Source: Ardenticatenaceae bacterium
GTDB lineage: Bacteria; Chloroflexota; Anaerolineae; Promineifilales; Promineifilaceae
Assembly: GCA_020634415.1 (NCBI GenBank)
Contig: JACKBT010000010.1
Coordinates: 1 to 64,000, forward strand
Direction of reading: 5' to 3'
DNA: 64,000 nt
Shown here: positions 44,959 to 46,500 of the stretch, piece after piece
Position numbering within the stretch: the stretch's first letter is position 1
Layout: each line of letters begins with the position of its first letter
Translations under genes and position numbers: made by a program
Notes under the pieces: model-generated
Database searches by the model: none
Seen by the model: the letters and a program-made list of their open reading frames with translations, nothing else
What the model was told of the DNA's origin: nothing

Positions 44959-45257
44959 TTATCTGTGTCACCATCCTTAATCAAAATCACACATAACACC
45001 TGCCCCTCCGGGAGATTTCAGATGAGGCCATTACACCCGAGATAAACCTCCCGGAGAAAAAGGTCAAAATCACACACCTATTTTACGTGCCAATTGCCAT
45101 AGGCCAAAGGAGTAAAAAAAGCGTAAAAATTGGCTTCACAACTGCATAGAATCAAAAACTCTATAGTACAATGCACGCAGGTCGCAAAAAGCTAGTTTGA
45201 CACTCTAGTATTTGCACCAAATGTACTAGCCCATAATTTAAGTAAAGGAGGTTTTCC
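44959..45257. other. Intergenic region upstream of the ComX-like gene, with two inverted repeats
   Basis: No gene is seen. CTCCGGGAG (45006-45014) and CTCCCGGAG (45048-45056) form 9-bp arms around 33 bases. A TTGACA at 45197-45202 is followed by CTAGTA (45205-45210) and TACTAG (45224-45229), a 6-bp inverted repeat that also contains TTTG/CAAA inside. No good -10 stands at normal spacing from the TTGACA, so an activator-dependent promoter or operator is possible. A second -10-like TACAAT is at 45167. Confidence 0.4.
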
Positions 45258-45428
45258 ATGCACAAGAAAAAAGTGTCTATTCATGGTTTCAACAGTATGT
45301 TGAAGCCCAATGGGAACGGCAGCCCCATGTTCGCCGTATTACGCGGTCTGACAAAGGTGAAGCGGTCACAGATCAGTGCCGAACCGTTCCTCATTGAACT
45401 GGGTTCTTGGAGCGGATGGTCCTGGTAA
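45258..45428 (+). CDS. ComX-like precursor peptide with Trp-rich C-terminus
   Basis: A very strong AAAGGAGG stands 6 bases before the ATG. The 56-residue product begins MHKKKVSIHGFNSMLKPNGN and ends EPFLIELGSWSGWSW, with Trp at 51, 54 and the last position, 56. It has no Cys and no membrane segment. ComX pheromone precursors of Bacillus are also 53-58 residues long and carry, near the C-terminus, a Trp that ComQ modifies with a geranyl or farnesyl group before export. The next gene encodes an isoprenyl-diphosphate-synthase-like protein, as comQ does. The match is by size, position of Trp and gene pair, not sequence identity. A differently modified RiPP precursor is the alternative. Confidence 0.65.
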   Translation: MHKKKVSIHGFNSMLKPNGNGSPMFAVLRGLTKVKRSQISAEPFLIELGSWSGWSW

Positions 45429-45490
45429 GGACAATTTGTTCCAACTGTTCCAACAGCGCATACCAGCAAACATAGAAGCAGATATGAAAA

Positions 45491-45522
45491 TGCGTGTGGC
45501 CTTAGGCCACACGCATTTTTTT
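45491..45522 (+). terminator. Strong intrinsic terminator between ComX-like and ComQ-like genes
   Basis: TGCGTGTGGCC (45491-45501) and GGCCACACGCA (45505-45515) form a perfect 11-bp stem with loop TTA, followed by seven T residues (45516-45522). It would stop most transcripts after the peptide gene, so the peptide is expected in excess over the enzyme. Confidence 0.9.
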
Positions 45523-45540
45523 GATATTTGGGGACTCGTG

Positions 45541-46500
45541 ATGATAGGACAACAAATTAGAAAATTGATTCAATCGCTGCCAGAGGTTTCTGCCTGGCCG
45601 GAAATGGCAGCTATTTTTAACCGGCTGGACAATAGTCAGAACCCTGATTGGGAGATACCTTGCCTGGTGTGCCAGGCAGTTGGCGGGAGTGTGCAGGCTG
45701 GCTTGCCTGGGGCAGCCGCCCTGGCTTGTTTGCAAGGCAGCATTTTGTTTGTAGATGACATTTTGGACAATGATCCTCGTGGGGAGTACCATCGCTTAGG
45801 GTATGGGCCAACCGCCAATTTGGCGCAAGCTATTCAGGCGGCCGCTTTTCGGGTTATAGCAACGGCCGTTATTGACGAACCCAGACAATTGGCCGCCATT
45901 CACACCCTGGCCAAAGCCGCCATTGATACAGCCTATGGGCAAAATCTAGACGTGCAGAACCTGCGCGGTGAAGAAAATTATTGGAAGGTTGTGCAGGCTA
46001 AAAGCACCCCATTTTATGGAGCATGTTACAAGATTGGGGCTTTGATGGGAGAGGCAGATTTGAAAACGGCCGATTCCCTCTACGACTTCGGCGTAATCAT
46101 AGGCGAAATCATCCAGCTAGAAGACGACCTGACAGATGCCTTTGAAACACCCAGCAACGCGGACTGGCGCGAAGGCCGCAACAACCTGCTCATCCTCTAC
46201 GCCAGCACCGCCCAACATCCCCAACAAGAACGATTCCTTCAACTTCTACCCCAGACCGACAACCTGGCTGCCCTGCAAGAAGCCCAACAAATCCTCATCA
46301 CCAGCGGTGCCGTCAGCTACTGCATGTACCATCTCATCAGCAACTATCAGGCAGCACGGCAACTGCTCGACACCCTCAACCTGGCAAATCCGCAAATTAT
46401 ATTAAGCATGTTAGACAGCTATGCCAATTCACTCATCCACTTTTTAGAGCTAAGTGGATTTGCAGTGCCAAAGGAACTGCTGCTGGCTCAAGAAATGTGA
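45541..46500 (+). CDS. Isoprenyl-diphosphate-synthase family protein, ComQ-like
   Basis: I start the gene at ATG 45541, after the terminator hairpin, giving 319 residues (a GTG lies one codon earlier); reading farther upstream would run through the hairpin. The protein has the all-helical prenyl synthase pattern: first Asp motif FVDDILDND (DD at 72-73), KSTPFYGACYKIGALMG, and second Asp motif IIQLEDDLTD (195-199). ComQ of Bacillus is a diverged member of this family, of about 300 residues, that prenylates ComX on Trp. A conventional short-chain prenyl diphosphate synthase is the alternative, but other isoprenoid genes are absent and a Trp-rich peptide gene lies 112 bases upstream. Confidence 0.8.
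   Translation: MIGQQIRKLIQSLPEVSAWPEMAAIFNRLDNSQNPDWEIPCLVCQAVGGSVQAGLPGAAALACLQGSILFVDDILDNDPRGEYHRLGYGPTANLAQAIQAAAFRVIATAVIDEPRQLAAIHTLAKAAIDTAYGQNLDVQNLRGEENYWKVVQAKSTPFYGACYKIGALMGEADLKTADSLYDFGVIIGEIIQLEDDLTDAFETPSNADWREGRNNLLILYASTAQHPQQERFLQLLPQTDNLAALQEAQQILITSGAVSYCMYHLISNYQAARQLLDTLNLANPQIILSMLDSYANSLIHFLELSGFAVPKELLLAQEM

Follow-up and report, generated by a model that had tools for sequence, protein, structure and literature searches.

In a 64-kb stretch of Chloroflexota DNA, the window of this study, a short gene for a Trp-rich peptide is followed by a gene for a diverged isoprenyl-diphosphate-synthase-like enzyme. The pair is conserved in related genomes, in most of which it lies close to the gene of a receptor homologous to ComP of Firmicutes. 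We have good confidence that the enzyme prenylates the conserved Trp of the peptide, and that relatives sense the peptide via their ComP-like receptor.

A precursor gene and a synthase-like gene in the window

The ribosome binding site AAAGGAGG is spaced six bases from the ATG of the precursor gene (Table 1), and the encoded peptide ends in IELGSWSGWSW, with three Trp within its last six residues, at the first, third and sixth positions counted from the end. Of these, W54, third from the end, occupies the position that at least 90% of the aligned precursors (n = 23) conserve. The enzyme frame begins with an ATG, a GTG at 45538 being an alternative start; its product matches PF00348 at 2.2e-20 with no second domain, and carries the motifs DDILD (FARM) and DDLTD (SARM), the latter intact. 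A sequence-only reading of this DNA had proposed just such an arrangement, a 56-codon gene with a strong ribosome binding site and a Trp-rich end, placed first, and an isoprenyl-diphosphate-synthase-like gene with DDILD and DDLTD, placed second, and our analysis bears it out on each of these points.

Table 1. Features of the precursor-enzyme pair in the window
Feature	Position	Strand	Remarks
Ribosome binding site AAAGGAGG of precursor gene	45244..45251	+	read from sequence
Precursor peptide gene, 56 aa	45258..45428	+	leader, then core ...GSWSGWSW
Hairpin and T run	45486..45520	+	16 pairs, loop 3
Isoprenyl-diphosphate-synthase-like enzyme, 319 aa, PF00348; putative peptide Trp prenyltransferase	45541..46500	+	

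Is the short frame a gene at all? A search of the window peptide against 5.8 billion proteins recovered the peptide itself and a single other match, P0122, likewise of 56 aa, which is 77% identical and has an identical SWSGWSW end. A profile built from 28 leaders of other loci, with the Trp cores removed, ranked the window ORF first among 1200 open frames of at least 30 aa in the window, with an E-value of 1.6e-7, the next-best frame reaching 1.1. Thus, both the relative and the rank argue that the ORF is more than chance, and we dropped the chance reading. We likewise dropped the reading of the peptide as a classical ComX, as PF05952 is unmatched: against Pfam, the peptide matched no family at E ≤ 1, ComX included, and its relative in locus L033 had no match to the Pfam ComX model at 0.1; an annotated Anoxybacillus ComX gave 2.7e-20 in the same test. 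Searching G001 and 14 control genomes with the Pfam ComX model returned nothing anywhere, B. subtilis among the controls included, so that this negative carries no weight. With NHLP leader models there was no match for the window peptide; the sole match, at E 0.26, was to an unrelated ABC-ATPase model.

The hairpin between the two genes is a possible partial terminator, which would keep the precursor transcript in excess over that of the enzyme. Stems of -15 kcal/mol or better ahead of a T run occur in 13 of 28 loci, a count made without shuffle control; terminator-like sites in a 2-kb stretch, 3 against 2.5 in shuffles, are not above the shuffled level.

Conservation of the pair

A leader-bearing short ORF lies upstream of the enzyme in all 30 distinct loci, the window included, and in 29 of them a Trp stands near the precursor C-terminus, mostly as W-x-x-W. 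The sequence-only reading had asked whether the peptide gene is kept beside the enzyme in related genomes, and it is. Seven loci come from MAGs of Chloroflexi, Anaerolineales, Anaerolineae, Caldilineae or Caldilineaceae; the further ones come from a class sample, with the enzyme in 25 of 396 genomes, and a phylum sample, with the enzyme in 6 of 400, five of them shared with the class sample, 30 being the total after removal of overlaps between samples. The gap between precursor and enzyme is 30-411 bases in the 28 loci measured. While 23 precursors were found by searching for a C-terminal Trp, those of L031, L032, L035, L057, L019 and L029 were found in later searches, and that of L034 sits at the end of a different contig from this genome (L097, G387). 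As the Trp filter also let through 7 unrelated ORFs, in 6 loci, the leader was tested alone: with profiles from which the cores and all sequences at least 50% identical had been removed, the correct ORF came first in 27 of 29 loci, L034 standing outside this set, and second in L024 and L030. In equal-length precursor pairs (n = 7, none with the window peptide), Ka is 0.17-0.22, Ks 0.98-1.99 and Ka/Ks 0.11-0.19; with Ka this far below Ks, related precursor ORFs evolve as proteins, under purifying selection.

The viral contigs searched held no relative, and a plasmid search with the L072 sensor gave no match. A plasmid search with the enzyme returned 48 records, of which the best 20 of 48 are 24-31% identical and either annotated as polyprenyl synthetase or without annotation.

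A profile search from the 23 precursors yielded 74 proteins and, together with the loci precursors, 96 distinct sequences, outside which stand the precursors of L019, L097 (G387) and L093 (G294). All 96 have a Trp within their last 15 residues, where W-x-x-W is found in 89, GW in 86 and W-x-G-W in 80. Counted from the C-terminus, 49 of them have their last Trp at position 2 and 27 at position 3, and 1 to 3 residues follow it in 85. The precursor of L019 has its leader intact, with ASWD and then 44 residues beyond its only Trp. In a six-locus subgroup (L029-L032, L035 and L036), residues may extend past the core (WLIWKAETPGT, WEIWHAPDADVTY); other cores of these loci, LGWSAWW and TWSVWG, have no such extension.

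The prevalence of W-x-x-W, in which the first Trp is nearly fixed too, would also agree with a different modification of the peptide, with both Trp prenylated or the prenyl group cyclised further; a precedent for the latter is ChrPC, for which Trp prenylation with cyclisation of the added prenyl group is reported (PMC13290415). We regard this as unlikely, given that the enzyme has no second domain and that single-Trp cores exist (VGWD, VGWS, VGWK, PSWF and LQWRG), according to which one acceptor seems enough.

A ComP-like receptor in relatives

Flanks are long enough at 28 loci, the window being among them, and at 26 of these a receptor is encoded near the pair; L063 and L081, where the contig ends 5 and 71 bases past the enzyme, stand outside the count, and the two exceptions are the window and L066 (G100). 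The receptor is about 740-1270 aa long where complete and follows the enzyme, often touching it, or is divergent and before the precursor, as in six loci; in L072 a regulator gene stands between the divergent receptor and the precursor. Locus L079 (G409) has a receptor or fragment flanking the pair on both sides.

The receptor N-terminus has a single TM helix followed by a PDZ-like domain and then by several more helices, an arrangement to be set beside the published modelling of B. amyloliquefaciens ComP, with a PDZ domain between TM1 and TM2 and ten TM helices (PMC9620489). Pfam PDZ_2 in the L002 receptor stays below the cut-off at 1.3e-4, while the PDZ match in L099, a receptor of the second type described below, lies above it at 3.6e-7. 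A model of the sensor from 6 rows has a mean pLDDT of 77; Foldseek found no match to it at E ≤ 0.001, and the rows from E 0.09 onwards contain DegS, HtrA and AlgW, which fit a PDZ domain but do not prove it, as well as GPCRs. A profile of 24 sensors with the kinase part excluded (Z = 20,000) matched Anoxybacillus ComP with 49 bits (E 2.9e-13) and Priestia ComP with 25 bits (E 5.4e-6); as controls, 40 shuffles and other neighbour proteins stayed below 1 bit, and 45 other polytopic proteins did not exceed 1.3 bits. Alignment of the sensor with ComP by hhalign gave 97.8%. The TM-PDZ-multiTM sensor is homologous to Firmicutes ComP; taken together with the pair, it gives Anaerolineae ComQXP(A)-like modules that have the order X-Q-P and an unrelated leader.

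By motif, the outputs of the 26 receptors are HisKA in 14, HisKA_3-like in 5 and HD-GYP in 2 (L002 and L061), with none assigned in 5, one of which is truncated. Judging from a sequence region common to the HD-GYP receptors, the output of L004 is probably HD-GYP too. Pfam, run on three receptors of the main type, found HD_5 in L002 (4.3e-39), HisKA and HATPase in L007, and HATPase in L072, where HisKA_3 stays below the cut-off. Where HD-GYP replaces the kinase (L002:6914-9394, L061 and probably L004), the pheromone could be coupled directly to c-di-GMP. Regulator-like genes, which by sequence and by their similarity to ComA read as REC and LuxR-type, lie near the pair in six loci (L071-L074, L077 and L078). 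Compared with two ComA, these regulators, including one of the two L072 copies, are 21-28% identical, a level taken as common among such regulators. In four of the six subgroup loci (L073, L074, L077 and L078), a related gene of 354-382 aa stands beside the divergent receptor.

Among the 396 class genomes, 25 have the enzyme (E ≤ 1e-30), 34 the sensor (E ≤ 1e-20) and 23 both, with p = 7e-27 before any correction for kinship. The 11 of 34 genomes with a sensor and no enzyme at these thresholds include two with an enzyme of a second type (G019 and G055) and one with a broken enzyme gene (G334).

This second type is encoded directly before a PDZ-multiTM receptor in G019, G055 and G368 (L098, L099 and L103), and scores 69-92 bits to the main family and 69-91 bits to canonical enzymes. 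Its locus in G055 has a 72-aa precursor with an NHLP leader (NF038399, 46.1 bits at a cut-off of 40) that ends in GKWG; the locus in G368 has a 79-aa ORF with no family match, ending in ENIWVPPTYP, and in G019 the contig begins inside the enzyme frame.

Further genes recur in the surroundings of the main-type pair. A ComEC-type gene (PF03772, from scans of two of the five) is convergent after the receptor in L065, L067, L068, L069 and L075, roughly 3.5-6 kb downstream of where the enzyme gene begins. It recalls the link of ComX with competence in Bacillus, but four of the five loci are close relatives, so that the arrangement may reflect shared descent only. ABC-exporter genes found close to some pairs (L059, L060, L062 and L076) could be an export route or a matter of chance. 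Among the neighbours identified, neither gene type is found near the window pair. Downstream of the enzyme in L071 are large genes that, from their sequence, read as an acyl-ligase and a polyketide synthase, an echo of Bacillus, where ComX controls surfactin.

A window without a receptor

At the window pair, both an adjacent ComP receptor and an adjacent ComA regulator are missing, and the receptor slot of the relatives L001 and L003 is occupied by a proton pyrophosphatase. Profiles of sensor, kinase and response regulator made here found none encoded in the 64 kb, in line with the earlier statement that no ComP/ComA pair is present. Thus, the window shows the emitter half only, and the receptor of its organism is either elsewhere or missing. 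The G100 assembly, with its pair at L066, has no sensor at E ≤ 1e-20; about 3 kb before its enzyme, a second, very diverged synthase-like protein of 295 aa is encoded.

The opposite case may be represented by L094 (G095) and L096 (G350), strong ComP-like sensors in genomes where the enzyme is absent at E ≤ 1e-30, which could be receiver-only. In L095 (G334), the prenyltransferase gene beside the receptor is broken over three frames, by decay or assembly error. L100, L101 and L102 are second ComP-like sensors with no pair nearby, the module being elsewhere in those genomes.

Could the prenylated peptide serve not as a signal but as a bacteriocin or membrane-active agent, standing alone in the window because it needs no receptor? 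The two loci without a nearby receptor, the exporter genes near four other pairs and the use of PalQ to prenylate antimicrobial peptides (PMC13290415) would agree with this; that 26 of 28 loci encode a ComP-like receptor close by, in many cases immediately behind the enzyme gene, makes it distinctly improbable.

An enzyme family that has lost its IPP motif

The enzyme of the proposed signalling pair has the fold of a trans-isoprenyl diphosphate synthase, its closest solved folds being ordinary synthases, and has 694 relatives at E ≤ 0.001 (the best 120 of 694 are listed). Residues D72, D73, D76, K154, Q192, D196 and D199 are kept in all 81 aligned relatives, and D195 in 80. GK-x-x-R, in contrast to canonical synthases (GGPP, FPP and octaprenyl-PP), is found in none of the 81, in none of the 30 loci sequences and thus not in the window enzyme, and the His before FARM is replaced in 81 of 81 and missing from the window enzyme. 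Both GGKxxRP and this His have roles in IPP binding. In the wider family from the loci, counted over the 29 of 30 rows longer than 280 aa, GK-x-x-R is again absent (0/29), but the His is kept in 4/29 and a Lys stands in the Lys column in 2/29, so that remnants of the IPP site persist in some members. The family further differs from canonical synthases in that RRG is reduced to RG and the post-SARM loop is about six residues shorter. Four of four Firmicutes ComQ likewise lack GK-x-x-R and the His, and shortened loops are common to these four and the family.

In a tree with long branches, 14 family members, four Firmicutes ComQ and three type-II enzymes are separated from 14 canonical synthases, E. 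coli IspA and IspB included, by a branch with 99/97 support; the family with ComQ alone is not the best grouping in it (p-AU 0.087). An earlier tree of 47 rows, in which L001 and L003 are the closest relatives of the window enzyme, also has the family separate, with ComQ on the canonical side; a group of family and ComQ is neither demonstrated by that tree nor clearly rejected (p-AU 0.077). Tight grouping with ordinary short-chain synthases, about which the sequence-only reading had asked, is therefore not seen in these trees, whose long branches call for caution.

That the enzyme is after all an ordinary short-chain prenyl diphosphate synthase beside an unrelated peptide gene, in keeping with its PF00348 match, fold, intact SARM, best NCBIfam matches (polyprenyl synthases, though far below cut-off, the first with 87.9 bits against 468) and the His kept in 4/29 members, is very improbable and was dropped in view of the lost GK-x-x-R, the separation in the trees, the peptide linked in 30/30 loci, and the one or two better-scoring PF00348 genes that the 7 genomes checked already carry.

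Discussion

How could a peptide-modifying synthase relative operate? We envisage a precursor composed of a recognition leader and the C-terminal core G-S-W-S-G-W-S-W, its transcript possibly made in excess over the enzyme by virtue of the hairpin. The leader would guide binding of the precursor to the enzyme which, having no IPP motif, would bind an allylic diphosphate (geranyl, farnesyl or geranylgeranyl), supplied by the ordinary synthases of the cell, via its Asp-rich motifs and Mg2+. A C10-C20 prenyl group would then be transferred to the indole ring of the conserved Trp; the likeliest acceptor is W54, which is third from the end, as in ComX, and preceded by Gly. In ComX, acceptor Trp at positions 2-4 are described to work (PMC5331326), and PalQ is described to work better with Gly before the Trp (PMC13290415). 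After trimming, the modified peptide would leave the cell and, in relatives, could be sensed by the ComP-like membrane receptor, which would relay to its histidine kinase or HD-GYP domain; in the subgroup, the receptor would be a histidine kinase with the response regulator gene beside it. While the conservation of the pair, the purifying selection on related precursors, the loss of the IPP motif and the homology of the receptor to ComP come out of the computations, we infer the prenylation itself, its donor and acceptor residue, the export and the match between ligand and receptor.

The main point against a simple analogy with ComQ is the intact SARM, DDLTD. ComQ has a pseudo-SARM with the second Asp only, and in the review that describes it, DDxx(D) is regarded as unsuited to prenylating Trp (PMC5331326). 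In PalQ, the SARM Asp is reported as present and mutable without loss of activity (PMC10853753).

The sequence-only reading had described the system as either distant or convergent. The homology of the receptor to ComP favours a distant common origin, at least for the sensing part; the precursor is without a match to the ComX model. With a homologous sensor and a similar enzyme occurring in Chloroflexota, the module would be much older or have spread widely by transfer. We incline, by a little, to the view that prenyl-Trp signalling is such a module, common to Firmicutes and Chloroflexota, and that in the latter it comprises two or more types of precursor (those of the W-x-G-W leader family and those with an NHLP leader), kinase and HD-GYP outputs, the HD-GYP ones probably being c-di-GMP outputs, and genomes that look emitter-only or receiver-only. 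If so, emitter-only genomes (G100, perhaps the window organism) and receiver-only ones (G095 and G350) would open cheating and eavesdropping to study. The system would also give candidate peptide pheromones for Anaerolineae, and its enzymes would constitute a large family of probable Trp prenyltransferases whose leader is defined and whose acceptor, W-x-G-W, is short; the HD-GYP receptor loci could link a peptide pheromone directly to c-di-GMP.

How does the system relate to those already known? A 2014 census places ComQXPA-like loci in Firmicutes only and in no other phylum (PMC4008528). Chloroflexi are said to contain the ComP-ComA type of pair (PMC8895600). Among the matches listed from the open-licence literature, no such ComX/ComQ-like system is described for Chloroflexota or Anaerolineae, or via other phyla.

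The PalX/PalQ/PalP system of Paenibacillus alvei shares with the one described here a RiPP precursor with a conserved C-terminal Trp, an isoprenyl-diphosphate-synthase-like enzyme with the SARM Asp retained and a histidine kinase gene, and is resembled by our type-II loci (as far as described in PMC10853753); the reported preference of PalQ for Gly before Trp (PMC13290415) is paralleled by the GW found here. However, the leader of PalX is of the NHLP kind and Trp is its final residue, whereas no NHLP model recognises the window leader and 85 of 96 precursors have residues after the last Trp. With ComQXPA of Bacillus and relatives, the common features are a precursor of 50-60 residues with a Trp near its C-terminus, a diverged trans-isoprenyl diphosphate synthase with FARM and without GK-x-x-R, a receptor whose sensor, of TM, PDZ-like and multi-TM parts, is homologous to ComP and, for a subgroup, a response regulator encoded close by. 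The window peptide, at 56 aa and with a C-terminal Trp, agrees in length and Trp position with what is given for B. subtilis ComX precursors, 52-73 residues with the Trp no more than 5-10 residues away from the C-terminus (PMC4008528). The differences are the gene order, X-Q-P in Chloroflexota modules as opposed to Q-X-P-A, the unmatched PF05952, the intact SARM in place of the pseudo-SARM of ComQ, the mostly W-x-G-W core, the strong hairpin that separates X from Q in 13 of 28 loci, the HisKA and HD-GYP outputs and the Chloroflexota host. Judged by its sequences, the system would be a variant of the ComQXPA kind, in which the peptide is not a ComX and the enzyme a possible ComQ.
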